Below the pieces are notes generated by a model. The model ran no database searches. It saw nothing but the letters and a program-made list of their open reading frames with translations, and was not told where the DNA came from. From the IMG/VR virus record IMGVR_UViG_3300045125_000158, positions 123,260-187,259 of that record: a DNA stretch of 64,000 bases. One strand, 5' to 3'. The translations under genes were made by a program, and so were the position numbers. Origin of the DNA: a virus. Positions 6,717-49,700 of this stretch are shown piece by piece; position 1 is the first letter of the stretch; each line of letters begins with the position of its first letter.

Positions 6717-7926
6717 TTATTGTTTTTCCGGATTTTCAGGATTAACTGGTTTAGCTGGATTTTGCTGCATTTTTGGGGCTTCTTCTTTGTGCGGATTAAT
6801 TTCTTGCTCACCTTTAGATCTTTCAAAAAGCTTCTGTGCAACACCCGTACCTTTTGAAGGTGTCAGACCTGGTAATAAGTCAACCATTACCATTTCACCC
6901 GTTTCATCTTCTTCATAGGATGCACCCATGCCTGTAATCATGTTTTTCATAATAAGCAACGCTTCGTCAAAGGTGTCTGCTAAAGCCACGGTTCTCCATG
7001 GCGGCAATCTGTGCTTTCCTGTGGCTGTCATTCTTTCTGCAAATTGCCATCTATTAGAAGCTACTGTTTGTGTATAAACACCAAATTTAAGCCTATTTAC
7101 AATTTCTGGCTTGCCCTCCTCGGCAACATATTCATGCTTGGTAGTAAATATTCCGCCTCTTGTTTTTCCTGGTGCAACATTTCGTGGGCTTACAAAAAAT
7201 AGGTGACAATAAGAAAAATGTATAACCCTCAAGAGCCGTATGTGCAGACAGTAGCATCCCCACCCCTAGCAGCGACCTTATCATCTAAGTATTTTTTGAA
7301 TGCCTTCAACGCAGGAATTGAATAGGGATACTCTGGCGTGCCAGGCTTTGCGTTACGCAACTTTTCAAGCTGTTGCAGCGTCAAAAGCGTATACATATTT
7401 CCATTTTTCTTTCATTTCTGCAAAAGACATACCCTCAGCAGCAACATCAACATCAACGCTTTCTGCAGGCTTCACGCCATGCATTTTATTTAATTTCTCA
7501 GGTACGATCAAGTTTTCAATTTGTTCTTTTGACAGATAAACTTCATTACCCACAGGTAAAGCACCTGGTCCTGCAGAATATCTTGTCATTTTTTGTAGAT
7601 AAAATGCACCAGTTTCAGGCTCTGCAAATATCTTGAATACCTTTGCGTAAGTTACTGGATCGGTTTTTCTAAGATTTTCAGCTACATTACAGCTTTCAAG
7701 CTTCTGTATATCTATAGAATCGAGAGGTCCATTAATCACAACACAACTTCTACCAATATCTAATGGCTGCTTGAACCACTTTTTCTGCATCTGGGTAGCA
7801 ACTCCTGGTTCAAAAATTCTAAACTGCTCTCTGTTTCTTTCTCCATCAGGATCCATAAACCTACTGTCATCCTTCTATAACAAGAGTGAATCCATTTGCA
7901 ACAGGAGCAACTTTGTAGCCTGCCAT
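6717..7926 (-). CDS. Virion-module protein of unknown function
   Basis: I do not recognise the family. Two long frames (7856-7365 and 7232-6717) and a short N-terminal piece, MAGYKVAPVANGFTLVIEG, join by indels near 7870, 7365 and 7235 into one protein of about 400 residues. Segments include FRIFEPGVATQMQKKW, a Pro/Gly-rich RYSAGPGALPVGNEVYLSKE, and a charged Pro-rich tail ending NPENPEKQ. It sits between the portal cluster and the head-protein gene, which suggests a role in head or neck assembly. Confidence 0.6.
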
Positions 7927-8574: not shown

Positions 8575-8970
8575 TTATATTGAGGTTGATTTTCTCGGAA
8601 TGGGTGTACCCCATCTTTTATTTGCGTATACAAGAGCTGCCTTAATATTGTGAAAATACTCACCATATGGACTATAAGTTTTAGTGTCTGGATCTTTCGT
8701 AAACTCTTCAATAGGTATTTTCTTAACACCTGCAAAATAAACCTTACCTAAATTTTTATGAACCGATGGACCTATAACAACATAGTAGATTGAATTTGTT
8801 GTATAATCATGACCTTCCCAACGATAATACGATCCAGCTCCTATTTGCTTTTCGAATCGTTTCTTCAATGGTTTTGATCTGGTACGATATGTTTCTTTCC
8901 ATATAATACCACGATCACGTATTCTTTTGCGACCCGCTTCTTTGTATAAATTGTATGGCTCCGTACTCAT
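8575..8970 (-). CDS. Hypothetical basic protein, 131 residues
   Basis: Intact frame starting MSTEPYNLYKEAGRKRIRDR, with an AAGGAAGG ribosome site just upstream. It is rich in Lys, Arg, Tyr and Gly (KKRFEKQIGAGSYYRWEGHD) and looks like a compact beta-rich domain. Its start overlaps the stop of a small upstream gene, so the two are probably co-translated. Confidence 0.7.
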   Translation of the reverse strand: MSTEPYNLYKEAGRKRIRDRGIIWKETYRTRSKPLKKRFEKQIGAGSYYRWEGHDYTTNSIYYVVIGPSVHKNLGKVYFAGVKKIPIEEFTKDPDTKTYSPYGEYFHNIKAALVYANKRWGTPIPRKSTSI

Positions 8971-12346: not shown

Positions 12347-13922
12347 TTATGCGTCTAAATCTTCATCAACAGTTTCTGTTTCAACATGCGGATCAGAGTA
12401 TGTTTTACTAGGATTTATCGGTTTGATGTCTAAATTTGCTTGTGCAGATTTTTGTACGGATGGATTTATTAACACATCAGTAGGTCTTGCATCAATTGGT
12501 TTTTCCTTTTTCGCATCAGCCTGCTGCGGCTTAATCGTTGTAGGAACACCTCTTAATGAGCCATTGCAATTCTCGCAATGAGTAGCAATAGCTGAATTGG
12601 TAGAAAAACAGAAAGGACATGTTTTTTGTCCCTTCAGTTTTTCCTTTTTATATATACCTTTTGAAAGCGAGAACGGATCTTTAGACGCTGTTACTTTTTT
12701 TACAGTTTGACCACTCCAATCATAAAGATTGGATGGCTCATACTCCGTCTCTGTAGGCGAATAACCACGATCTTTTGCATGTTCCTTACGTGCTGCAGTC
12801 AACGCGCCTCAAACGTCGAAAATTCTGGCATATATGGACGACGCTTTTGTCCTGGCAACAATTGCAGATTATTACCTTCAGGAATGTTGCGATCAACTTC
12901 AAAACGCTTGTTGATATAACCGCCAACGTATTCACCCTTTTCATTGCGATAAGGACGCGAATACTTGTCCATAACGTTGCCACGCCAGAATGTATCAAAG
13001 TCAATCGCCTTATCATCAAAAATAAAGTTATGATCTCTGGCTCTTAACCACGTATGCCAATCACTAGCCAAGAAACCTACGTTACTCCACTGGCAGAATT
13101 CTCGCAATGATTCTGGACCGAAGTTTAAGAACTCGGTATGATGCTGCCCATTAAACTGAGCTTGCTTTTTAAGATTATAAGACTTCGCAGTCTTAACATT
13201 AACTGATTTAGCTGCTTGCTTAGCAAATGCTTTTATTTTGCTTTCAGCTTCTTTAATTACATTTTGTATAGAAGCTTTAGTATAAGTTGCTTTCACAGAT
13301 TCCACTCCTTCACCGCTTGGGCCTATAGCCTCATAAATGTCAGTCAAAATTCTTATTCTATCAACTTCGCTTCTATCGGGTTCAAAATATCTTTGTGCAG
13401 CATCTTTTACTGTCTCTTGCTTATCTACAGGAGACTGCGTAATTAAATTATTGATAAACATCGGGTCTTTTTCAGCGTCATCTTTTTTGCAATTCTTGCT
13501 CAAACATTTGCTTCAATTCATCAAAACTATTTACGCGAAACTCTTGTTCCTGAGTTGCTGGCTCCTGCGTTGGCTGATTTATTTCAGTCATTTCATTTTG
13601 TGGAGCAACTAAATTTGTGTCTATTTGAGAAATTTTTCGCAAATTATATGGCATTTTTGTTGACGCTGTAGCCAAAGCTTCTTCTACCTCAAACATCGTC
13701 TCCACAGTGTCTTGTCCTGTTTCTTTTGCTATTTGCTGCGTTTCATCCAATCCGTCTTTTAATTTTGTCAATTGATTTATTTGGCTTGCTGGTGTATCTG
13801 CGCGGATCCACCATAGGCTTGATTGTTTCCAGTTTTTTATTGAGATTATCACCTCAACAGCTGGATTACCAAGCGTTTGCGTAAGCTCTCACAGAAATTG
13901 GCAGATTGGAATTTATAGGCAT
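12347..13922 (-). CDS. Virion-module protein with zinc-ribbon tail
   Basis: Unrecognised family. Segments starting MPINSNLPISVRAYANAW (13922) and continuing in frames 13852-13478, 13503-12799 and 12802-12347 join at A-runs and one TTGAC joint into about 525 residues. The middle carries FNGQHHTEFLNFGPESLREF and WHTWLRARDHNF. The C-terminal part has a CPFCFSTNSAIATHCENC zinc ribbon and a polar tail. The start overlaps the upstream stop (TAATG). It is encoded directly upstream of the portal in transcription order. Confidence 0.6.
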
Positions 13923-14693
13923 TAAGATTCCTTATTTTGACTATTTAATGCATTGAACAATCTATCAACGGCATCATTGTGCATGCTTTTGTAGTTGCTA
14001 CTCTTGTTTTCGTCCATAAGAGCGTCTACTAATTTATCGGTTGCTTGTTTAGCTGTTTTTACTTGCTTTGTATTATGGACTTTGGCTTGCTTTACTTCTT
14101 TTCCTCGACCTTAGGATTTACTCTATTTTCCAAAGCTGTAAGTCTATCAAAATTAGTGTTCTCATCAAACATGCTGATTTTATTGGCAGGAATCCACCCT
14201 TTACCGCTGCTATTTGCGCTTACAGAATTGACGCTTGCAGACTTGTTAGTAATAACATCTTCTGCACCAAGTTTAGGAGCAAAACTTTGCTTATACTCTG
14301 CTTGTTTGAGTTGGCGAACTCTATCAGCTGATTCTTTTCAATTTGCGTTGTTTCTCTAGAAGATAGAGTGCCAGCAATTTTCTCAAGACTTGAAGCGTCC
14401 CATATTGTGTTTTTATTTGACGTATTGCCTTGACTCTTTGTTCCGCCATTATTGGTAATACCACCATCTACCGCACAGCGACTTGATCTTACGCTTGAAG
14501 AATTACGAGCAAGAGTATCTCCATAACGACTTTGTGCAGTTTTAGGCTCAGCCCAACTACGGTCTTTTTGTATAACTTTTTCCTGCTTCATTTCAGGTTG
14601 ACGCTCGTTCATTTCTTTACGATAGTCCTTTTTATCCTCATTATTGATAAACGAATTCAGAGAATTCAAATTCTGAGATTGCTTATGTAGCAT
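13922..14693 (-). CDS. Hypothetical polar protein of the virion module
   Basis: GGAGGAAAGC precedes ATG at 14693, so I choose MLHKQSQNLNSLN over the in-frame ATG 12 bases upstream. The protein is Lys/Gln/Ser/Asn-rich and low in hydrophobics. One indel near 14300 and another near 14105 move the frame to FAPKLGAEDVITNKSASVNS, then to KTAKQATDKLVDALMDENK. The stop TAA overlaps the next ATG. No known domain. Confidence 0.55.
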
Positions 14694-14750
14694 GCTTTCC
14701 TCCAAATCCCTCGTTTGACGAGAGAATTTATAATATTATTTTTACTTTCT

Positions 14751-15401
14751 TTAATAAACGTATTGTTGCGAATGAGCTGCTTTTTCTGACTGCGGATTAA
14801 GAACCTCATCCAATGAACTATCCGTAATAGTTTCTTGAGTTTTAGGCGCAATCTTAAAGGTAAACTTATAATTTGCTTTTGTGCCTTCAATAATTTGCAA
14901 AGTTAACTTTGTAACATTAAATTTGCCAGCAAATATTTTTAGCAATATCAACCGCTTTTTCCTGCTCAAGCGATTCGCCCTTAATTTCTGCAGGTAGAAT
15001 GAAAAAATCCGCTAGATCCTCCACCACCCATTACGTCTACATTTATATCAAACAGACCATTCTTTTTACCAAGTTTTATCTCGATACCCAGATCATGGCA
15101 ACAATTTATAATAGGCAGATCTCATATCTTGCCTATCTGTATTAGATTTTTTGCACATCTTTTGGGCGCAGAAAATAAGCTATCAAATTTATTTTTATTA
15201 AAACCAGACGGTTTATTACCTTTGCTTTCAGAAAGATCTCTTTTGCAAATCAGCAATAGGATTATAGTTTGATCCTATATCCTCTTGTTCAATTAATGGC
15301 CTAGATTCTGGTGATGCAGAATCTAAATCACCAATAGCATCATATTGCATGGATTTCTGAGCGGTCGTAATTTTACGTTTACCATTAGGAGATATACGCA
15401 T
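14751..15401 (-). CDS. Hypothetical protein, frameshifted
   Basis: The start MRISPNGKRKITTAQKSMQY continues through several indels (near 15235, 15180, 15115, 14995, 14950). Later parts read YKLLPDLGIEIKLGKKNGLF, then ILPAEIKGESLEQEKAVDIA, then FNVTKLTLQIIEGTKANYKF, ending HSQQYVY. The total is about 215 residues. Function unknown. The Gly-rich VMGGGGSSGF loop may link two small domains. Confidence 0.5.
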
Positions 15402-22669: not shown

Positions 22670-25600
22670 TTTAAACTCCTCTACGGGGATAAGATGCCGT
22701 TTTTCTAAATCGTGAGCAACTTTTCCACCAGACCCAATTCCATAAGGCACGCCCTGCATAGATCTCCACACAATATCGTTATTACCATTTACTGGTAAAT
22801 TAATCAATTTTCCTTGCGGCAATCTGTCAACTTCTTTTTTCAATACAATTATAACAAGCACCTGCTAAAGCGTCTACGATATCATCAGTTGTAACGTCTC
22901 CATCTCTTTTGGGGTATACTTTATATCCACTATTCAACCACTTTCGTTGTAAATTTTTCATTTCATTCTTTAGCAATAGATGATTAGGAATAAACAACTT
23001 CCTCTGAACAACTAATTGATATAAATTGTCATAAATAATGTTCTTATATCTTTTAGTAAACGGCGTCATCTTGGTAGGAACGCCTTTTTTACGTAATTTT
23101 TCAATGCTATAATGGCTATTAAAATGGTCATATGTCACAACTCCAAGACAAAAATCGAACGTTTAAACTTGCAACATATTCATCCACCTCGTCTATAAGT
23201 ATTGGCCTATTAGGAGCAGGACTCCAGTATTTAATATGATCTACTATTATTCGCCAATCCTTTTTCATGTTCTCTTTATCAAAATATACCTCTTTGTGGG
23301 CCATTACAAGAGCGTAATTGTGACTAGATGTCGCAGGATCTAAATGTGCAAAATAATAAACACCAGCTTTTCCATGATCAATTAATTTAAGCAACTTGTC
23401 GTTGAAACAGTCCTCAACTGCTTCTTCTGGAAAAAGTTTTCACCAGAAGTACCTGAGGAATTCTGCACCAAATTCCATTCTGAATTTTTCTTCAGGCATA
23501 CTTGGAAATGCAGCCATAAGGCCTTCTTTGCTCTGCATAGGGTTTACCTGCCATGTTGCAGCCTGACAAACTAATCTATGATCAACCTCTGCATGATTGA
23601 CATACAAATCGTAAAAAATACCTTCTTTGCCTCTTGGCGTACTCAAACATATGATTTTACCATCATATATCTTATCTACAATCTGTTTATTATCCTTATC
23701 AAGTACTGGTTCGCCTTTATCATCAACTTTAGGCACTTCACGTACATATGTTTTTACTGCAGGGGCAAGAGAGTTAAATATCGCATCACCAGAAGATGCA
23801 CCAGCCGTGTTTTTATAAAGTCCAATTTCGTCAAGCAACAAAACATAACATGATATACCTACTAGCGTGTCTGAGTTACTGTGACCGCTTTTGACAACTA
23901 TACTCCCAAGATTTGGCGCGAAAACCTTTTGATACGAGTTCTTCGTTTCTCTTTCTATCTTCTGGTGTTAAGAAATGTATACCATCCGAAGTTACACCCT
24001 CAGGCAATATTTTATCTCTAAAATATTCGCTTTGTAAAACTTTATCTTTGATTTCGCGAAGAGAATTTTTGCTTGCAGAAGAATTTGCAATTGTTAAAAT
24101 TGTGAATGGTGTAGCTGAACCCAAATTATAAATTTTATACGGATCTCCGCCAGGCAATTCTAACAACCTCATCGCTTCATACAACGCAATAATTGAACAC
24201 AAAAATCTTTGCCTGAATTTTTTACGATGGAATCCCTGACAAACAAAATTTTGCAAATGCTCTTGATCACTAACTTGTAAGTCAAATACTCTTTTTCATC
24301 AATTGATAGATTTTATTTTAGAAAATGAAACTTTCGCATGTCTCTTTGACACTTTGCATTTTTTATAAGATTGTCTATTAGATTATTTATATTACTGTTT
24401 CTTCCTATAAATCTAATTTCATCAAGAAAAGTTTTTATATGTCGATATTTTTTAAACTCTAGACAATATGATAAACAATCATAATTGTAAAGTTTTCCTT
24501 CTGTCTTTATTTTAGTTTTTTGCTTTCTTGTTCTAATCGTTGCTATTATTCCGAATTTTTGCAACAGTGCTTGCACGGCCTGCACTTGCGATTTATTTAT
24601 CGATGCAAAACCCACAGTCATATTTGCTTGGTTATTTTTTCTAAAATGATAAACCCATCCGTCACAGCTAAACAGGGATTTCAGATAAGCGGCCACAACA
24701 TTCTTGGGGCAATTAAATAATGCACTTGGCACGCACTTGTTGTGACTCGTTTTACCCATAAGATCGTGCTTTATTAGAAGTTTTACAAGATCGTTTTTAT
24801 CTCTTGTTGATATGTTTCTCTGCTTTTTTCTCATCAAAATAATTTAGAGTAACAAATTTTTTGGATCGTATTTTATAAGCATATTTTTTACTGTCAGCCT
24901 TAGTCCATGTATCCTTGATTAATTCGAGATTATCACTCAGATTATTCAAATGCTTTTACAAAATCTGCACGTATATCTTCGTTTTTTGCAGTAAAAAAAA
25001 CTGCTGCTTGAGAACAACAGCCATCACCTGTTATATATCCTAATATAGCAGCTTCATCCTCACTAATTGCATTTGAATTGCCAAAAAATGGAATTGATTC
25101 GGTTATTGCTATTCTATCACCAGTATTTAAATCTTTACACTCGATCCATCCCCTGTCAGTAAGCATCGGATGATTGTCTGTAACTTCTATTTCATGCCCT
25201 GTAGAAGATGTAATCTTGTAAACACTTCTTCGACCCTGCGGTATGACGCCGCAATTGTCCATCACAACCATTTTGTTTTGCGATTCATCGTATGTCCAAG
25301 AAGATACTATTTTCTGTTCTTCCCACGCCTGTTTAGAAGTAAATTTCTCACCTGTTCTAGCATCAATCAAAACGCCATCTTCAGAAATACAATTGTGGCA
25401 TATAAAACCATTTGCCACAAAATTTTGCAAGCTTTCATGTTCACTAACTTGAAGATCAAAAGTTCTTTTTGTACCTATTTTTTTGATTATTTTTACTGTC
25501 GCAAAAATTGGAGCTATCTAAATCATGCTCACCCTTAACATTCTGTTGAACAAGTTCGCTCTCATATGAATAATTAAGCAAACCAATTTCTTGTATAAAT

Positions 25601-30228: not shown

Positions 30229-33200
30229 TTAACCACACTTTGATCCGCCGCAATCCTTGCAAGTCAAACATCCTTCCATTCTTACGACATTCGCTCCGCC
30301 GCATGAAGAGCATTGAGAACCGGTAACCTTAGTTCCATCAGCTATATACTTTTTCAAAACTCTAGCCATAGCTTTACCAAAATTAGTCATGTCTCCCGGC
30401 GACTTCTCTAGCTGATCAACGATAAATGATATGTCGGAACCATGCCTCAAAGCCAAACTAATCATGCGTGTGATAACTGCCTGTTCGTCAGTAAGTAAAT
30501 CGCAAACATTTTCAACCTTTGACCCGTCCTCTGCATGCAACTCGTAATGTCCTCGTTTATTTTTGGTAAGAGTTCCTTTCTTTAGTGTTGTGATGCATCC
30601 GTTCTTACCCGCAAATACTTCGTACGGATGACCCTCAAGCATGCTAACAAGAACAAAGAAATCTTCACCACGAGATTTGATATGATGTATATCACAATCA
30701 AGAGTCTTGGGTCGCTTTGGAGCATTCGTCTTAGTAAGCGATTCCTTCTTCTTTTCAGTGTTTGATACAAGAACGCCAGTGCGACATCCGTCACGATATA
30801 CAGTAAATCCTTTGCAGCCAGCCTGCCATGCTTTCATGTAAACTTCTGCAACAACTTCTTGCGTTGCTTCGTTAGGCAAGTTACATGTTTTGCTAATAGC
30901 GTGATCAACCCATTTTTGAGCAACGCCCTGCAAATCTACGCTAGCAGCCCAATCTACGTCGTTGCTTGTTGCCTTGTAATAAGGTGACTCCTTGTAAAAT
31001 TCAAGATCTTCGGCAGTTGCTATGTTCTTAATTTGATTCGTCTGGAATTTCATATCCATTAGCGTCCATCCACGCCTTGAATTGATGATGGAATACTGGG
31101 AATTCTTGCCACTTATCTCCGTTCTGATCAACAAAATCAACTCGCACATTCTGGCCATCACCGGGATTTATTTTCTTACGACGCTTGTAGAAGACTAAAT
31201 ATGCTGGCTCGATACCAGAGGTGGTTTGGCGTAACTGTTGATACAGAACCCGTAAGGCGCAGTTGTTAGGTTAGCGATATTTCTGCGACCGTACTTGCTA
31301 TACAATTCATATACATCTGGTGCGGCATCCCAAATTCTTTGCAAATAAGGATGATTCTTTTCAAGCTTGTGATCAAAAATAGGGAATGCACCACGATCTT
31401 TGCCATCTTGCAACTAGAGCGATAAGAACCAACAGCAAGACTCTTATAAATCATTTCTGTAATCTCAATGCTCTCTTTGCTACCATATCGGACATTCAAA
31501 GCAGCAATAGCGTCACCTAGAGCAGTAATTCCAAGTCCCGTTCTACGCCCCTCAATACATGCCTTGCGTATGTTAAGCCACAACTCTTTTTCAACCAGTT
31601 TTACTTCATCAGATTCTGGATCGCTCTCTATTTTAGCTAATATTTTAGCAATCTGCTCTAATTCAAGGTCGATCATGTCGTCCATGAGTCTCTGTGCAAT
31701 TTCCGCCATTTGCTCAAGTTTTTTGATAATTAAACTTGGCATTTTTGTAAATTTATCTGTCTACAAAACTCAACAAATTAACGCACATAAGCCGGCACGA
31801 ATCTCTAGGACTTAAGATGATTTCGCCACAATTTTTGCTGCAAATCATATGCCATTCTTTTGCCATCTTTTTCATTTGACCAACCACCCATGTAGTAGTT
31901 ATTAAATTCATCAACTGTACCATTATAGACAATATCTTTGCCTAGGTATTCAACAGATTGGACACGATGATTGTGCTGCAAAGCTGCTGCTTTGAGTTCG
32001 GAAAAACTATAAAATCCGTTTTTAGTTCGCAATCTAAAAGATATCTTTTGAGTTCTACACTCGTTTTCCCACTCCTTAAGCAAAGGCTCTCGACACAAAG
32101 CCTGCTTGAGTTTTGTATAGATATCTAACTTGTCTTTTTTGTTTTTGTTAGCGTAATTATGATACGTTGCATTTATTGATTCTTTTCTGCGAATATTTAC
32201 ATTAGTAGTATTGTTAAGATAAATATTGCTGCAGCTCAGGCTACATACAGATTGCTCTCTATTGTAGTAATTTACAGCGTATGAATTTTTGCAGCATTTA
32301 CAATTCTTGATTACATAAACTTCAGATCCTTCGATGTAAGCTTCATAACCTTGCTCGATAGCCTTTCGATGAGTTTTAACTAAACGCGGATCAATATCGA
32401 TATCAGCAAAATTGAGAGCAAGAGCACATTCCTTTGCTAAATCCAAAATATTACCCAATTCAGAAGATCGATATGCGGTAAATGTTTGTGGCAAGTTGTT
32501 TTTCTTTGCGTACTCAATCCACTCAAGATGTGAAAATCTTGCTCCAACTTGCTTAGTAAGAATCATTGCGTGTTCTCTAATTTCATCATTGGTATAATTT
32601 TTGCGTTTCCATTTTTATCATTACTACAAGCCTCAGACATTACTTGTGAGTAAGCGGCAAATCTTTCTTTATCAGATTTGATCTTGTAGATGGGGGTTCG
32701 CTAATCCACGAATCATGTTGCCGTGATACTGTGCATGAGCATCCTTGTGCATGCTTTCTAAATTGCTCGGGTTATTATTCTTAGGATTATGATCCTTATG
32801 ATGCACATGATGATGCTTAGCTACTGGCCCATAATGATGTTCGAACACGTAACGATGCTCTGACTTTTTAAAATTAGAATTACTATTAGCGAGTATATAA
32901 TATAAAAGCTTATTGTTTGTAGACTTTTGGGTTGAGAATGCATCTACTATTGTTGACTCAGAATTTTCTTGCAATGTGCAAGCTGTCGCCATGTTTCAAA
33001 TTTTTTACTTCGACGAAATCACCAGTATTCAATAGCACTTTATGGTTGCCAGTAGTTTTAAATTCCGAACCATCATCCAAAACAACTTTATAAACATCCT
33101 CACTATGTCCAGTTATTCTTGGGTTACGCATTGTCCTTACAGCAATCCTGCCTTGATGATCGCAACAATAAACAGGCACATCTAAGCCTTCTTCCGCAAG

Positions 33201-34201
33201 CTTTTGTATTTCAACGAAACCACGTCCATCAGCGACAGCAATCTTGGTGTCACCCGTTACACAAGGATTAGTTGCTGTCGATGCGAAACCAAAATCCTTA
33301 TAAATATCAGATGGGGTATACTTCTGAGCGGTATCCCAAAATAAGCAGATCCTGGCTCGGCTGATTCCCAAGCAGCATGTATAATTTCTTTCCACAACTC
33401 TACTGCATCAACTTCTTGCCGCACTTTTGGATTGCTGGAATTTACTGGCCAACGTAATTCAACTTTGCTCTTATTCTTGACTGCATTCATAAATTCATCA
33501 GACAAGCGTATAGATATATTTGCTCCAGTGACTTTAGTTTTATCTTTCTTAATATTGATGAATGTGCGTATCTCAGGATGATGGCAAGATATTGTTAGCA
33601 TCAATGCCCCACGACGACCATTTTGCGCAACCTCACGGCAAGTATTACTAAATCGCTCCATAAATACGCCAATACCATCAGTAGTACGAGCTGCGTTCTT
33701 AGTAATGATTCCTTTCGGTCGAATGTGGCTGATATCAAATCCAACACCACCACGACGCTTCATAATTTGAGCTTGCTCTTGGTCTGTTTTTAATATTCCA
33801 CCATATGAGTCTTCAGGCGATGGTATCACGAAACAATTCGAACAGCTCTGTATTTGATAATCATTTCCAATAGCGCTCATAGGTGAGCCTTGAGGAATTA
33901 TCCACTGGAAATCCTTGAAATAGTTGCATATTTCTTCTTCACTCAATGCATTGCTATAATTCTTTTCTATTCTCGCAAATTCTTTTGCTAATCTTCTGTG
34001 CATTTCGTTTGGCGTTGGTTCTAAAATATTACCATTTTGGTCTCGCATAGCATACTTGCTTACGAAGACACTGGCTGCTAAATTGTCTCCGTCAAAATAT
34101 TCTAAACTCATTTTCATGGCCTCTTCATGAGTGTAGACGCTTTGACCTTTAGCTATATCTTGATTAGCATTTGCGAACGTTGTCATATTCAATTTCTCCA
34201 T
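30229..34201 (-). CDS. nrdJ: Class II (adenosylcobalamin-dependent) ribonucleotide reductase, intein-interrupted
   Basis: It reduces ribonucleotides to deoxyribonucleotides. N-extein: PSPEDSYGGILKTDQEQAQI, MKRRGGVGFDISHIRPKG, NGRRGALMLTISCHHPEIR. It reads into the intein at ATNP|C. After the intein: CGEIILSPRDSCRLMCVNL, the radical-site region, then EGRRTGLGITALGDAIAALN and YMKAWQAGCKGFTVYRDG. The C-terminus carries CSSCGG...CLTCKDCGGSKCG, a Cys-rich tail typical of NrdJ. About 845 residues without the intein. No small subunit gene is adjacent, in line with class II. Indels lie near 33350, 31760, 31430, 31215 and 31100. Confidence 0.92.
31831..33263 (-). other. Intein in nrdJ with an HNH-type endonuclease
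   Basis: It begins at Cys in TNP|CVTGDTKIAVADGRGFVE and has B-block FKTTGNHKVLLNTGDF. It ends HRVQSVEYLGKDIVYNGTVD, EFNNYYMGG and, after an indel, SKN before CGEI. It inserts before the conserved CGE of the reductase, a known intein site in this family. The inserted domain has RYVFEHHYGPVAKHHHVHHK and DHNPKNNNPSNLESMHKDAH, an HNH pattern, unlike the LAGLIDADG enzymes of the other inteins. About 475 residues. Confidence 0.88.
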
Positions 34202-35782: not shown

Positions 35783-36594
35783 TTACGATTGCAACATAGA
35801 TTCTAAGTTAGCCATGTACTCGGGATTAAGCTGCACTCTTCTGTAATCTTTCAATTATTTTTGTATGCATCTGACTAATTCTTGATTCACTGTAACCTAT
35901 TCTATCAGCAATTTCTTTCATAGTCATATTTTCATAATAATGCATATGAATTATTTTTCTTTCGATTGGGATAAAATTGCGTCCCATCAATTTTTTAAAC
36001 ATTTCTTCCTTCAAAATAGCTTCTCTAGGTGAATCATCAAAAGATCTTATGCTTTCTATTTGTATTTCTTCAAATTCGTTTTCATCAGAACTATTAGTTG
36101 CATAAATGCTTAAACAGCCAACGGGGTTAGATTTAGATTTTATTTCTAAAAATCCTCAACCGTCATGCTCATATATTGAGCAAGCTCTTCGTCAGTTGGA
36201 ATTCTACCAAGATCTGTTTGTAGAGCTTGCGTTGCTTTTTGTATTTTACTATAACGCTGCCGAACCAAACGAGGCACCCAATCAACTTTTCGTATATTAT
36301 CTAAAATCGCACCACGTATACGATGTATAGCGTAGGTTTCAAATTTAATATTTAAAGTAGGATCAAATCGATCGACGGCATGGAAAAGTCCATCAGTCCC
36401 CCATTGCACAAAATCATCATAATCTACCTCTTTAATTTTTTTGCCATGTTATCGGCAACTTTAAATACAAGGTGATAATAAAGTTCTAAAAAGAAATTCC
36501 TTTCTAACTGATACTGGGGATCATCTTTTTTGCAAACGATTCTAGTTTCACAAAACTTCATCCAACGCATTTTGACATCTTCGGTATTCTGCAT
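35783..36594 (-). CDS. FliA-like (sigma-28 group) RNA polymerase sigma factor
   Basis: It starts MQNTEDVKMRWMKFCETRIV. One indel near 36430 leads to VDYDDFVQWGTDGLFHAVDR, FDPTLNIKFETYAIHRIRGA and ILDNIRKVDWVPRLVRQRYS (regions 2 and 3 of FliA/WhiG-type sigmas). Another near 36145 leads to region 4, HMHYYENMTMKEIADRIGYS, ESRISQMHTKIIERLQKS. A last indel near 35840 restores an ending, LNPEYMANLESMLQS. About 265 residues. It would redirect host RNA polymerase to phage promoters, most likely those of the late virion operon. Confidence 0.9.
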
Positions 36595-41940: not shown

Positions 41941-42074
41941 CAAAATAACCTCTCATAAAGGTTGTGTACAATAGTAGAATTAGCAGATCCAACAAGGCTA
42001 TATCTATCTTTATCAATAGTTTCTTCACGAATATTGATTAAATTTTGTACAAATGCTTTTTGTGTTTTGTTCAT
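41937..42074 (-). CDS. Small hypothetical protein, 45 residues
   Basis: ATG at 42074 gives MNKTQKAFVQNLINIREETI and ends IVHNLYERLFW. Short, helical. Its stop overlaps the GTG of the next gene. Confidence 0.45.
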   Translation of the reverse strand: MNKTQKAFVQNLINIREETIDKDRYSLVGSANSTIVHNLYERLFW

Positions 42075-42418
42075 GTAATTACTTCCAATGTCTTAATTGT
42101 GTATATTGTTTTTTCCATAATAAATACTCGAATTTAAATTTATGTCGATTTTATAAAAAAATGAGCTATTTATAGTTTGTAAATATTTTAAAATCAACTC
42201 AAAATTTAATAGCAAAAATAATTCATGATATAAACAACACTAATACTATTTTCTATAGGCAACAAAAATATAAATATTACTAAGTGTGATAATTCTGTGA
42301 TAGAAACACAATAACAATATATCTACTAATTTTTATCTTATAAACAAAAAAATGATAATACTATTGACAATACTCGTAACGAAAATTTATTTTCAACCCA
42401 ATTCTATAGGTAGCAAAT
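42075..42418. other. AT-rich intergenic region between divergent genes
   Basis: About 340 bases, nearly all A/T, separating the leftward small genes from a rightward small gene. No ORF worth calling. It likely holds promoters for both directions; candidate -10 boxes are too numerous in such AT-rich DNA to choose one. Confidence 0.4.
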
Positions 42419-42683
42419 ATGAATTCCGTAGTTTCAGAAAGAGCCAAAACTAGATAAAAATCAATTCACTCACAAAATTGTTATTGATTGTAATCAAAAA
42501 ACTGTTTTACAGATTGAAAATCTTTGTAGATATTTTGAATTAACTCCAAATTCTCTTATTTTGCGAGGTCTTTGGATGTTGAATATGATTAAGGAAGTAG
42601 AATTATCTAATAAAAAAATCGGTATCATCACTTTGGATAACTCTAATATTGTAACTGATATATCACCAATAAATATTGTTTGA
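42419..42683 (+). CDS. Small rightward protein, possible ribbon-helix-helix DNA-binding type
   Basis: MNSVVS joins by an indel near 42445 to EPKLDKNQFTHKIVIDCNQK, TVLQIENLCRYFELTPNSLI, LRGLWMLNMIKEVELSNKKI and GIITLDNSNIVTDISPINIV. A short strand followed by two helices (NLCRYFELTPNSLILRGLWML) fits a ribbon-helix-helix fold. About 85 residues. Being rightward and next to a structured RNA candidate, it could be a regulator. Confidence 0.5.
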
Positions 42684-42800
42684 AATCTCAATATTGTCTT
42701 ATTTAAAATATCAGATATTCCTAAACTTATTTGTTATGAGAATTATATAAATATCGATTGTAAATGTAAATATAAATATAATAAAGAGTTGAAAATATTC

Positions 42801-42866
42801 GATTATTCGCAAACTCCTTCGTCGTTTGCGGAATACGAACTTCTCCGAAGACTCCGAAGTTCATAT
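42801..42866. repeat. Two adjacent hairpins
   Basis: Stem one: CGCAAAC (42808-42814) with GTTTGCG (42824-42830). Stem two: GAACTTC (42837-42843) with GAAGTTC (42856-42862), extendable with one mismatch. No strong T-run follows, so a terminator for the rightward small gene is possible but not certain. They could also belong to the structured RNA that begins about 70 bases on. Confidence 0.55.
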
Positions 42867-42934
42867 TCTTTGTAAAATCATTTCTTTTGTAAAAGTCAAG
42901 TTACATTTATTTTGGATATTGGATATTTGATATT

Positions 42935-43345
42935 GCGCTTACGCCGCACTCCCTTTCAGCCGGAAAGAATTTTGAGGAAAAAACTTTTTCTGGCCGAAAG
43001 ACAATTCCATGCGATATGCATGAAACGCTACTAAGTCGGTCTTCTTAAGGTCGGCGTTAATACTTAGTTCTCAATCAGTCACACCGTCTCTTTTACGCTA
43101 TCACAATAGAAAGGGAGCAACTATGGTGAACGCTAGACTTAATTACTTAAGTCATCATAGAGTATAAAGTAAGATATTTTATCTTTATACACCGCTTGTC
43201 AAGCAGTCTAGTACCTAGGCTCTAGACCCAAGCCTCGTCAATATTAAATGGTTATTGACCGACTCGATAAAATATGATCGAAACTGAGCAAATATCTACT
43301 CATGGAATCTGTTTGATCTACAGATTCGACCATATTTTTTGTTAA
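42935..43345 (+). ncRNA. Large structured noncoding RNA candidate, about 400 nt
   Basis: No convincing ORF on either strand, a higher GC content than the flanks, and dense complementary segments. A long-range 9-bp stem joins 42949-42957 (CTCCCTTTC) with 43109-43117 (GAAAGGGAG). Local stems: CATGC/GCATG near 43010; GACTTAA/TTAAGTC (43136-43153); GTATAAAG/CTTTATAC (43162-43190); GTCTAG/CTAGAC (43206-43227); GTCAATA/TATTGAC (43237-43259); a 14-bp stem with one mismatch, 43269-43282 with 43325-43338; and GAATCTGT/ACAGATTC inside it. The last stem ends in a T-run on the plus strand, which sets the strand. Size and setting recall large phage RNAs such as GOLLD or ROOL, but I cannot match a family by eye. 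Confidence 0.6.
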
Positions 43346-43348
43346 ACT

Positions 43349-43513
43349 TTAATGATTCACTTTAACGAATTGCAAGGGAGATTCTTTTTCACCTTTTTTA
43401 TCGTCACAAGAGCAGCATTTATTAGTGCAAGATTTTATTTCTTTATTATTCTGATAGAATGGCATGTGTTCGTCATCATCGTAGTATGGCTCGTTATTTT
43501 CAAGATTTGTCAT
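43349..43513 (-). CDS. Small Cys-containing protein, 54 residues
   Basis: AGGAGCAACT precedes ATG at 43513. MTNLENNEPYYDDDEHMPFY, then KSCTNKCCSCDDKKGEKES and a short tail. The cluster C-x3-CC-x-C may bind metal. Acidic first half. It is the last gene of the ATPase operon and stops 4 bases from the 3' end of the structured RNA candidate, which is convergent. Confidence 0.5.
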   Translation of the reverse strand: MTNLENNEPYYDDDEHMPFYQNNKEIKSCTNKCCSCDDKKGEKESPLQFVKVNH

Positions 43514-45072: not shown

Positions 45073-46077
45073 TCAATCTATGAGTGGTTGACCTTTGATG
45101 ACAGGTATGTCGTACAGGCACTCGTTGCCATATATTTGACCAACATGTTCTATCATAATACCACTATGGCTAGTAACGATGAATTGTTTGTTTGGAAAAG
45201 AATCTAATATCGAATCAATCATTTTTTTGTGCCGTTTGAAGTAAACGTGCAGCTCTATATTATCTACCAGTACAATATCACTTCTATCTATGACGGTTGG
45301 GTCGCATAGGTTTCTCAAAAGTGTTGCTATCTTTTTTTCACCAGCACTCATTGACTTGTAGTGAACCTTGACATCACCTTTGTTTATGACAAAATCTTGA
45401 TAAAAACAAAATTCTTCATTTGCGACATTTGTTGTCAGAGCTGTATATATTTCTTGTTTTGTCAACAAAACATCTTGAGTTTTTATGGTTGTGTCTTTGA
45501 TGCTGGCATATGCAGCTAGAGCTTGCTTTAAAGCGTCTTTGTTTGCGTTTACGCCTTCTGCTGCGATTGGTTTCTCTAAGCAACAATCATACCCGTAAAT
45601 GGCTTTTGCGAGGGTTATAAATGTCTGGGATCTGTCTGTTGGTATTTGAAATTTAGCAGTGCTTAGTGGGTTGTCAGCATCAATAAATATTACGCTATCA
45701 CCTTTTCTGTCAACCAAATCATTTCTTACAACATCATCATTAATTATTTCTACATGATAATCTTTGATGCCATCTGAAAAAATTCCATGAATATGCATTT
45801 CATCTGTGTATTTTGTAAAACCAGCATAATTTGGGTCGTAGTCAGGATGAAACTGCAACTTACGTAAAAGCAAATTATCGTCTTCTGTGCTTCTCTTTAT
45901 GTACGCTTTTGCTCTACCAAGTAAAGTAATTGCGTTCAAAGCTGTGCTTTTACCGCAGCCGTTTGGGCCGAAAAACATATTTATAGGCTTATATATATTG
46001 TAATTTGTAAAATCAAAAGTAACTGGATCCTTAAATCCAGCGTAATTCTTCAAAAATAAAGATTTTATCTTTAGCAT
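45073..46077 (-). CDS. ABC/AAA15-type ATPase (SMC/OLD-like)
   Basis: MLKIKSLFLKNYAGFKDPVT is the usual start of SMC/RecF/OLD-like ATPases. Walker A is FGPNGCGKSTALNAI (about residue 36-50), the ABC signature is SMSAGEKKIATLLRNL, and Walker B is DIVLVDNIELHVYFKRH followed by the H-loop region FIVTSHSG. The residue after the Walker B Asp is Asn where a catalytic Glu is usual. 334 residues, intact. No nuclease domain is attached. It heads a four-gene leftward operon. It may be a repair, anti-defence or defence-type ATPase. Confidence 0.8.
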   Translation of the reverse strand: MLKIKSLFLKNYAGFKDPVTFDFTNYNIYKPINMFFGPNGCGKSTALNAITLLGRAKAYIKRSTEDDNLLLRKLQFHPDYDPNYAGFTKYTDEMHIHGIFSDGIKDYHVEIINDDVVRNDLVDRKGDSVIFIDADNPLSTAKFQIPTDRSQTFITLAKAIYGYDCCLEKPIAAEGVNANKDALKQALAAYASIKDTTIKTQDVLLTKQEIYTALTTNVANEEFCFYQDFVINKGDVKVHYKSMSAGEKKIATLLRNLCDPTVIDRSDIVLVDNIELHVYFKRHKKMIDSILDSFPNKQFIVTSHSGIMIEHVGQIYGNECLYDIPVIKGQPLID

Positions 46078-46717: not shown

Positions 46718-49700
46718 TTATTTCTTTTCATCTTCTGCTTCTGCTTCTTTTTGATTATTTTCAATAGCCTTAGCTATAATCTTTTGCATTTCTTGAATCT
46801 TCTGTGCTTCTGTCAAACCTGGATTTTCCATGATTGCGTCAAAATCTATATTCTGTTGCTGTGCATAATCTTCTATATCTTCAAGGGTTTGTGCGATATC
46901 TCCCTCGCCAAACAAAAATTCTTGGTCATTTTCTATTCCGCCCGCCTGTTTCAAATTTTTATTCAGTTCAATTTCTGCTGCTGCTCTTTGTTTTTCAAGA
47001 TCAACCATTTTTGCAGAATTTCCGCAAGACGCTTTTTGTCAGGTGCACTATTTAAACCACGTAAAATAATTTTCTGCGTATCATGATCAAGTTTTTGTAT
47101 TTGATCTGCTATTTCAATTTTGTTACGTACATAATCGTAGAAAATTTGATCTAAAGAACTTTGTTGGGGAGTGCCTTCTATAAGCATATAAAAAGTATTC
47201 ACGCCGGAAATATTATTAATTCTAAACGCTCTGCCTTCAGTTTGTTTTGCGGTTGAGGGAGACCAATCGAAATCATTCATGATAACATAACTTGCCGTAT
47301 TTTCCAAACTTAAACCTGTGCCACCCTTTTTAGCTGATATAACCATAGCACGCGACAAGCTATCTTGGTCCTTAAATTTTGCAACTTTATTTTGTATATT
47401 AGGGCCTTCATCGTTTTGACTAATTTTCAAAACTCTTTCTCCACCAAAAGCCGCTTCAATTTCAGGGTCGAATCCATCTTGCTCTCGCAAAAAAGTTTCA
47501 AGTTCTGCTTTGATCTTATTAACACAGCTTATGAAGTTAGAAAAAATTAAAACTTTATTGCCTTGTTCTGCCAAGATTTTTTAGCAAAGGCAACAGTAGC
47601 AGGCACTTTAAGATTAGCCATTTCAACGCGAGCATGAATCATAGCGGCAAGTTTTTCATGTGCTTCGCCATGGAGAAATGCATATTCGTAGCTTCGAACC
47701 ATAGTATCATATGCATCACCGTCTATTTGTTCTTTTGGTACATTACTTTTATCAACAATGTGATCTGGTAAATCGGGGTTTATGTCACGCATAGATCTGC
47801 TGAAAAATATACCAGATAGCACGAGTATTTTCTTTAGCTCGAACGCCTTATCTTGTACTTCTTCAAGCAATTCATCAATATTTGGCGATTGATAGCCTTT
47901 TTAATTTAAGTTTCTTTACATAACCTTTTTTGAATCTTCCTAAACTCATTTCGCCCAACGTATGACCTGTCAAGTTTAAAATATTATGAATGTCTCGCGG
48001 GTGTGTTGGCTACGGTTGTTGCCGATGCAGCCCACCTGAAAGGAACAGATTTTACAATCTCTTGTAAATTTATCGAGGCTGCAGTTTGGCTGTTTTTAAC
48101 TGTATGTGATTCATCTACGATTACTACTTCAAATTTCATGGTCAACAAAGTATTCATAATTGCACGAATACGATTTTTTTCGTACAAGTATCTACCTTCA
48201 AAATCTTTTTTATATTCCTTAGTGGTGATGTCATTTAGGATACTGACCAATATTTGAGTATGAAATTACTATCCAGTCAGCATTTTTAACAGCATCAGCA
48301 GTAAGGTCTTGACTAATAATATAGGGTATATCTTCAAGACCTTTTTGTCTCTCCATAGTGCATACAACTATTTTTTGAGGCGAAACTCCAAGCTTATTCA
48401 TACCTTCATTTGCCCATTGGAATTTCAGATTGTTCAGAGTTACTATAAGAACCTTTACCACCTTCTTTTACTCTCCTTACCTGCAGCAGTTAACGTTGAA
48501 AGAGTTTTTCCGGTTCCAGGATCGTCTCCTAATATTGCGCCATTTCTTTCGTATAACCATCTAACTCCGTATTTTTGTTGATCGAACAAAGTAATATCTG
48601 GCGTTACAACTTCTTTGATATCATCATAAAAAGCCTGATAATCAAAGCTTGGGTTACCATTTTCGTCTCTTGTTTGTTCCGTTACTTTTTGATATACTTG
48701 CTCGCCATCTTCGTCGTATACGGGCTCTCCTCGGCGTTAAGCATAGGTATGTAATGAGTTCGAAGCACCTCATAACCATCAAGGGTCGCAGTATATCATA
48801 AGGCGACCTTTGTACACGAGGCTTTTGTAAAAGCCCACTTTTTGTATTTCTATAAAAGCCTGTCTATATTCTGTAACGTCCCAGCCTGTGTTGCTTAATA
48901 TTTTGCCAAACTTATATAAATCATCATATTTTCCGTAAACAAAAAATCTGCCATTATGCCTATCATCTATAAGCATACCTTCGGGTTTTTCTCTGCGGTC
49001 TACAGGTATTTCCAAATTTGGACGAACAAGATCTTTTTCCATGTTAGCAAATGTTGGAAAGCTAAACCTTAAATAACTGTATAAATCCGTCATTAGATCT
49101 AAATCTCGTGGTGCTTCAATTTCAATATGCATTTTTGTTGTATTTGAAACATTACGAGCATGAATTACTTTACGGAAATCCGTAAAATACTCAGGGTTTT
49201 CTTGTAAAAATATTTTATAATTTTGTATTCTTTCGTCAAGTGCTGATGAGTTTATATTTTGCTGTTTAAGAATTGATGATAATTTTTCCAATTGTTCAGC
49301 AGGTACTTTTGTGCATAATAAATGCACCCTCTGTTCCGTCAAATTTAGAAGTTCCCGGTTCTAGATATGCACTTCTAGTAAAGTTCTCATCAATAAGTTT
49401 TGTTACTGTGTCTCTTATTTGTTTTGGCGTATTATTGCCGTCACTCTGACGCACTGCAATTCCAATTATATCTTTATTTGCACTTTTTTGATATGCTGCG
49501 TTTTTGAAATTCTGCAAAACAACTATGTCATAAGTGATAAGCTTTGTTCAGCCGCTTGCTGCATTTGTTGTTTCGATTGCACTAAGTAGGCCGCAAGAGG
49601 AGTTGTATCAAAGCCAAAAGCCGTTAATTTTTGCACTTAGATTTATGAACAAAACTGATAAATTTGATTGTACTATAATTACATTTTCTTTAGGCGATCT

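Follow-up and report, generated by a model that had tools for sequence, protein, structure and literature searches.

Positions 42935 to 43345 of the window, as we call the whole 64,000-nt stretch of DNA analysed (bases 123260–187259 of a 187,259-base virus record), lie beside an ATPase operon, where no gene is clearly recognizable, and raise the question of whether this DNA encodes a structured RNA, on which strand, and what such an RNA might do. A first-pass annotation had proposed here a structured RNA of about 400 nt, in a region described as free of ORFs and less AT-rich than its flanks. No listed ORF in the region exceeds 40 codons, but one of exactly 40 codons, the only one of at least 40, overlaps it (42912–43034, plus strand, TTG start). 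The G+C content of the region (0.35–0.405) does exceed that of positions 42000–42900 (0.19–0.275), and is barely above that of the genes on the other side. Its folding beats 100 of 100 dinucleotide shuffles on each strand (z −4.81 plus, −5.04 minus).

The window genes near the region are on the minus strand and include pieces of an SNF2-type helicase, an ATPase gene of the AAA_15/AAA_21 type (45073–46077, minus strand) and ORFs leading toward the RNA. The ATPase matches the AAA_15/AAA_21 and SMC_N models and no terminase model. In phi29-type packaging, an RNA forms a ring on the portal and acts together with the packaging ATPase. Two ORFs between the ATPase and the small ORF that adjoins the RNA (43349–43513, minus strand) have no family match. 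The SNF2-type helicase, a single ORF of 1043 aa in the related locus L002, is spread over at least five ORFs in the window (46963–48589); this and several other seemingly split genes suggest insertion or deletion errors in the window record. LAGLIDADG and Intein-splicing matches at 24313–25430 (the latter at 34.7 bits, just below the cut-off of 35.8) adjoin a terminase-like reading frame named by eye, and an intein-like sequence at 32910–33452 lies beside a ribonucleotide reductase frame, again by eye.

Homologues were sought through relatives of the window ATPase and then downstream of each relative. The ATPase query retrieved 20 loci, including L128 at 60% identity (contig of 333,623 bases). 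The window ATPase is 62% identical to that of L002–L004, three contigs of one phage (370,652, 494,120 and 36,040 bases); these are the same loci as L125–L127, are identical where compared and were counted once. The ATPases of L129, L130 and L131 share 40–44% identity (contigs of 71,727, 104,165 and 169,505 bases), and the other loci of the 20 share at most 43% over short stretches, or 23–29%. Downstream of each of the close ATPases comes a segment with no clearly recognizable gene, and this segment contains a homologue of the RNA as read on the minus strand of the window. The window and L002 RNAs are identical at 51 of 67 positions (E 9e-8 in a 1-kb comparison), and profile matches were obtained in L128 (5e-20), L129 (5e-4), L131 (1e-3) and L130 (1.8e-3), giving a family of six distinct sequences in eight records. 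In L002 and L128, an Asp-rich ORF occupies the position of the small ORF that adjoins the window RNA.

A covariance model, R1, was built from these six homologues over a core stretch of about 100 nt (43022–43121, minus strand; CGG..GACTG..CCGAC..AA, with stem PA), and the members used for building it score 83.8–96.3 bits. Across 14 whole records, R1 found one strong copy in each of seven, all with a close ATPase and two of them from the identical trio L002–L004; none of the seven remote-ATPase records (23–28% identity, several of them fragments) was matched at E up to 1, and two additional hits were weak (E 0.061 and 0.52) and no better than noise. A degenerate core pattern retrieved seven stretches from the viral collection, all of them in the family. 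Other patterns were less selective: the first was too loose (at least 120 stretches, best profile match among its loci E 0.26), the pattern GGTGACTGGCTGAAAGC gave six stretches, three from family members and three apparently coding, and a relaxed core pattern gave 12, of which four were family members and eight were chance matches by R1 (best 12.4 bits, E 0.63). Two stretches from bacterial genomes (22.4 and 11.3 bits), with stem PA broken in both, were also taken as chance. Among deposited phages, no match was found with any of the six RNA sequences as query (E limit 1 or 0.1; one search at E limit 1 gave just 27-base matches at E 0.6), nor with the ATPase of the window or of L129. The family thus far recovered belongs to a lineage of uncultivated, mostly very large phages, with contigs of up to 494 kb.

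The homologues bear out the proposal of a structured RNA, with stems that are kept by compensatory change. Stem PA (43030–43068, minus strand, pairing 43068–43062 with 43036–43030; +18 to +21 from the core) reads CTAAGT/ACTTAG in three sequences and GCTGGG/CCCAGC or GCCGGG/CCCGGC in the others. Both sides changed in five of its seven pairs, and 97.6% of cells pair. The identical seven pairs were predicted by RNAalifold, uninformed of PA, and at the fixed position shuffles matched PA in 0–3 of 500 in all six sequences. The second line of evidence is a pseudoknot, PK2, in which the loop of hairpin E8 pairs with a strand after hairpin PB. This pairing has 8–12 bp (G-U included) in all six sequences. 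It is formed in the window by CTCCCTTTC (43109–43117, minus strand; −29 to −34 from the core) and GAAAGGGAG (42949–42957, minus strand; +115 to +143), and by different letters in L129 (CGCTCTTCA/TGAAGAGCG), L130 (AACTCTTCA/TGAAGAGTT) and L131 (CACTTTTCA/TGAAAAGTG). PK2 is the best partner among 259–300 nt upstream. Dinucleotide shuffles of the 60 nt upstream reached it, per 1000, in 0 cases for the window, 36 for L002, 22 for L128, 1 for L129, 0 for L130 and 5 for L131.

In a hand table of nine helices, both sides changed in 27 of 50 pairs, and the cells comprise 246 Watson-Crick, 6 G-U, 0 A-C and 4 other. To choose these helices, all six sequences were inspected by eye and G-U was permitted; E3 and E4a are represented by three sequences and E5 by four, and E4b, the outer stem and E6 are excluded. 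Visual inspection also suggested a stem in L002 (AAGCAGTCA/TGACTGCTT) and L128 (AGCAGC/GCTGCT), but it was rejected, being incompatible with E8 in L002. From the covariation, 42935–43338 almost certainly encodes a conserved structured RNA, and the aligned sequences indicate at least one long-range pseudoknot, PK2. The individual stems of the first-pass annotation fared unevenly. The window alone can form its 9-bp long-range stem (GAGTCGGTC/GACCGACTT), the best partner in the five homologues offering 5–6 contiguous pairs, and this stem would compete with the conserved stem PA. Several of the stems it listed, and this one most of all, are not those that the homologues keep.

Watson-Crick covariation is equal on both strands and carries no strand information. 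The six G-U and zero A-C cells of the hand table are biased on this point because the helices were picked by eye with G-U allowed, and the strand call therefore rests on two other measures. When the best helix of Watson-Crick pairs only was taken within each fixed interval, the first unpaired cells beside these helices, read on the minus strand, comprised 15 G-U, 8 A-C and 45 other. Of 18 RNAalifold settings, which share data and are therefore not independent, 15 gave the better consensus total to the minus strand and three to the opposite one. In four of the six sequences (L002, L128, L129 and L130) the minus strand also has the lower fold z; in the window (−3.79 vs −3.66) and L131 (−2.01 vs −1.90) the plus strand does, by a small margin (60 shuffles each). 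The RNA is thus probably on the minus strand, on which the ATPase operon also runs. The first-pass annotation had by implication read the region the other way, toward a terminal 14-bp stem and a T-run. The same fold on the plus strand, with that stem and T-run at its 3′ end, would share all of the Watson-Crick covariation, is favoured by the window and L131 z values and by the three consensus settings, and coincides with a sub-threshold RAGATH-35 match over the L130 core (21.7 bits vs 38.9, E 0.13); set against the excess of G-U over A-C and the majority of settings and z values, it is improbable.

Read on the minus strand, the RNA begins with a variable 5′ domain (43269–43338), predicted to fold as a three-way junction. 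Its outer stem (43338–43327/43280–43269) is the 14-bp stem of the first-pass annotation, which lies in this 5′ domain if the minus strand is correct; no alignment of the domain to the homologues was achieved by eye. The hairpin E3 (43237–43259, minus strand; GTCAATA/TATTGAC) was found in the window, L002 and L128, with both-side changes in three of seven pairs, and was not identified in L129–L131. E4 (43206–43235, minus strand) is an H-type pseudoknot of AGGCT/AGCCT and GTCTAG/CTAGAC in the same three sequences only; its first stem is without any both-side change and its second is imperfect in L002 (5/7). The hairpin E5 (43194–43204, minus strand), named in the window, L002, L128 and L129, is GCTT/AAGC in the window, GCCC/GGGC in L002 and L129 and GCTC/GAGC in L128, and was matched by shuffles in 143 of 500 cases for the window, no better than chance, and in 25, 0 and 58 of 500 for L002, L128 and L129. 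E6 (43162–43190, minus strand; GTATAAAG/CTTTATAC) was recognized in homologues by eye only.

The more constant part follows. Hairpin E7 (43136–43153, minus strand; −63 to −70 from the core) has both-side changes in all five inner pairs across the six sequences, with shuffles matching in 3–43 of 500 at the fixed position. Hairpin E8 (43101–43129, minus strand; −40 to −48) was matched in 0–41 of 500, and its pyrimidine-rich loop contains the 5′ strand of PK2. A short outer stem of the core (43096–43099, minus strand, with 43027–43024) is weak, 65.2% of cells pairing and three to four pairs being present in the window, L129 and L131 only. Within the core, the strand CGGT (43083–43086, minus strand) pairs in the window with GCCG at 43055–43052 to form PK1, which is CGGC/GCCG in L128, CGGT/ACCG in L002, L129 and L130 and 3/4 pairs in L131; this putative pseudoknot is short (4 bp) and less firmly indicated, and is consistent among the homologues. 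The letters GACTG and CCGAC are invariant and lie outside the stems. Hairpin PB (42953–43000, minus strand; +74 to +101; CTTTCGGCC/GGCTGAAAG) overlaps PK2 with its final bases, and was matched by shuffles in 0–45 of 500 in five sequences and in 228 of 500 in L131, where it is no better than shuffles. Two tandem hairpins (42868–42831 and 42830–42808, minus strand) correspond to the pair that had been noted upstream of the RNA; they were indeed found, at 42808–42868, and become downstream elements if the minus strand is correct. They fold strongly in the window (z −4.26), L002 (−5.24), L128 (−5.27) and L131 (−6.76) and are absent as a strong fold in L129 (−0.40) and L130 (−0.67), and the stretch has no repeats elsewhere in the record of the window. 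They are possibly the 3′ part or end of the RNA, whose size is about 400 nt, or up to about 530 nt with them included.

The neighbouring genes vary in kind and polarity, so the RNA looks like a stand-alone unit. Relative to the minus-strand reading, the window and L002 have a convergent gene downstream of the RNA and L128–L131 a co-directional one, which is part of a deformylase (L128) or a small or unclassified ORF (L129–L131) that precedes a DNA-ligase-like gene named by eye. Neighbour polarity is equally variable if the RNA is read on the other strand. A cis-acting element, serving the next gene as 5′ leader or riboswitch or the ATPase operon as 3′ UTR structure, would fit the window, where the RNA begins close after the small ORF on the strand of the operon, and the co-directional genes of L128–L131. 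However, the downstream genes differ and are convergent in two loci, L129 and L130 have their upstream gene on the other strand, and a terminator-like hairpin isolates the RNA from the upstream gene in L002. By this mixed polarity, the RNA does not serve any single gene as its leader or 3′ UTR, and a cis-acting role is quite improbable. Promoter scans at the RNA loci were not above shuffles, and terminator-like sites exceeded shuffles in L002 only (3 vs 0.8), partly at the ends of neighbours. Two adjacent reading frames of the window (35826–36409) match sigma-70 regions 2, 3 and 4; these matches suggest a phage-encoded sigma factor, and the promoters of the phage may be of another type.

Some loci show rearrangements or mobile genes. 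In L128, the RNA lies together with the Asp-rich ORF and the first deformylase part on a segment (13727–15091) that is inverted relative to its surroundings, so that the RNA and its direct neighbours are turned together and the peptide deformylase gene is split. No long inverted repeat surrounds it (longest arms 16 nt), and therefore either a real inversion or an assembly fault may hold. A TnpB-like ORF lies just upstream of the RNA in L130 (15968–17131), and HNH-like reading frames lie about 1 kb or less from it in L128 (15141–15732); by these ORFs, all named by eye, mobile genes settle near the RNA locus. L129 and L131 each carry a tRNA gene (7840–7916 and 8714–8789, respectively) about 1.2 kb upstream of the ATPase and 4–5 kb from the RNA. 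Both tRNAs have an anticodon loop of unusual length (ARAGORN '???'), and their T-runs make an indel error possible. ARAGORN found no tRNA in L125, L128 and L130.

Rfam at curated cut-offs, searched with the whole window and L128–L131, returned nothing but two tRNAs, in L129 and L131, away from the RNA. Permissive scans were run on stretches of the window, L002 and L130. The lone sub-cut-off match in the window stretch, ceN61, lies over the small ORF. Sixteen such matches were obtained in the L002 stretch, the best of them, RsmY (E 0.0012, 24.2 bits vs 57), covering the Asp-rich ORF and its terminator, and three in L130, including RAGATH-35 on the opposite strand over the core. All were taken as chance. 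Neither ARAGORN nor Rfam placed a tmRNA or tRNA at the RNA position, and ARAGORN found no tRNA and no tmRNA in the 64-kb window. The suggestion of the first-pass annotation that the RNA matches no family and may be new, in the manner of the large ornate phage RNAs GOLLD and ROOL, is thus upheld, although it belongs to neither. Among the papers listed in a literature search, judged by titles and opening lines of abstracts, none named the RNA. The family is new, and its kind, the large pseudoknotted phage RNA, is already known.

GOLLD and ROOL are described as phage RNAs forming RNA-only cages of unknown purpose, with covarying loop-to-linker pairs of which some were proved to be intermolecular, between chains of the cage (PMC12286853). 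Our RNA resembles GOLLD in being a large pseudoknotted phage RNA, of unknown function in both cases, in loop-to-linker pairing revealed by covariation and, if on the minus strand, in a conserved 3′ region and a variable 5′ region (PMC12286853). The core, E7, E8 and PK2 are present in 6/6 sequences, and E3 and E4 in three. With about 400–530 nt it is shorter, many GOLLD RNAs exceeding 800 nt. GOLLD is often near tRNA islands, whereas the window contains no tRNA. With ROOL it has in common a complex secondary structure with several pseudoknots and a phage or prophage setting with no known protein partner (PMC12286853). Its multiple pseudoknots are PK2, strong in 6/6, and the weaker PK1 and E4. 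It is shorter than the 659-nt ROOL example, and lacks a tRNA island. GOLLD forms a 14-mer cage and ROOL an octameric one. OLE RNA is likewise large and ornate, RNA-RNA contacts being a feature of OLE in the same source (PMC12286853). The HEARO/omega RNAs of IscB and TnpB are also large structured RNAs, carried by mobile DNA, which the TnpB-like ORF of L130 and the HNH-like frames of L128 recall, but no IscB-, IsrB- or TnpB-type ORF was recognized by eye in the window, L002, L129 or L131. None of GOLLD, ROOL, OLE and HEARO matched as a covariance model in the Rfam searches described above. On the features examined, membership in GOLLD, ROOL, OLE, HEARO or tmRNA fails, with some general features in common.

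A large folded RNA kept at the same genome place in several phages very likely acts as an RNA. The structures could instead belong to DNA, as an origin, a packaging site or a recombination site with hairpins acting as DNA; this would agree with the good folding on both strands and the inverted RNA-bearing segment of L128, but compensatory change in long-range pseudoknots and a one-strand G-U excess are expected of RNA, and a DNA element is extremely improbable. A very divergent member of GOLLD, ROOL, RNase P, tmRNA, group I introns or HEARO/omega RNA would share the size class, the phage setting and the pseudoknots, and the HNH-like and TnpB-like ORFs would suit the last of these; since none of these classes reached the Rfam cut-off in the window or L128–L131 or appeared in the permissive scans of the window, L002 and L130 stretches, and ARAGORN gave no tmRNA, this is very improbable.

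The explanation that we favour, though with less than even confidence, is a conserved, stand-alone, pseudoknotted minus-strand RNA that may act as a scaffold. The RNA would be made during infection from a transcription unit of its own and would work in trans as a folded molecule, its hairpin loops and linkers pairing within one molecule or between copies, and such pairing would yield a compact or oligomeric RNA body hosting phage or host macromolecules. A scaffold as in GOLLD and ROOL is tentatively placed first among mechanisms because PK2, in which a hairpin loop pairs with a strand far from it, resembles their loop-to-linker pairs. Close behind comes a regulator that binds protein or RNA. 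Such a trans-acting regulatory or decoy RNA, binding a host or phage protein or other RNAs and changing expression without any scaffold, is a rather unlikely but serious candidate, for which a polymerase, a ribonuclease or a defence factor could be proposed, with similar reserve, as protein targets. The RNA looks stand-alone and single-copy, the genes named nearby (ATPase, phosphohydrolase, deformylase and helicase) include none that is structural, and the invariant GACTG and CCGAC outside the stems could be a binding site; however, the RNA is large and pseudoknot-rich for a simple regulator. The scaffold-like reading, for its part, has to accommodate that no promoter or terminator stood out, that the RNA is shorter than GOLLD and ROOL and without their tRNA island, that just six distinct sequences are available with E3 and E4 in three only, that PB in L131 and E5 in the window are matched by shuffles, that the nine tabulated helices were chosen by eye, and that fold energy gives no strand signal in the window or L131.

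To our knowledge, phages have so far yielded few large structured RNAs. More doubtful than the scaffold itself is the possibility that pairs of the PK2 type are contacts between copies, building an RNA-only or RNA-protein body during giant-phage infection. If this were true, the family would be a new class of large phage RNA beside GOLLD and ROOL, unrelated to them, with a chain smaller than theirs and without their link to tRNAs. An additional family, shorter than these two and unrelated to them, for which a core, compensatory changes and a search model are now at hand, offers a compact test of whether large phage RNAs function in a common manner. The family also means that conserved RNA genes overlooked by protein-based annotation are present in very large uncultivated phages.
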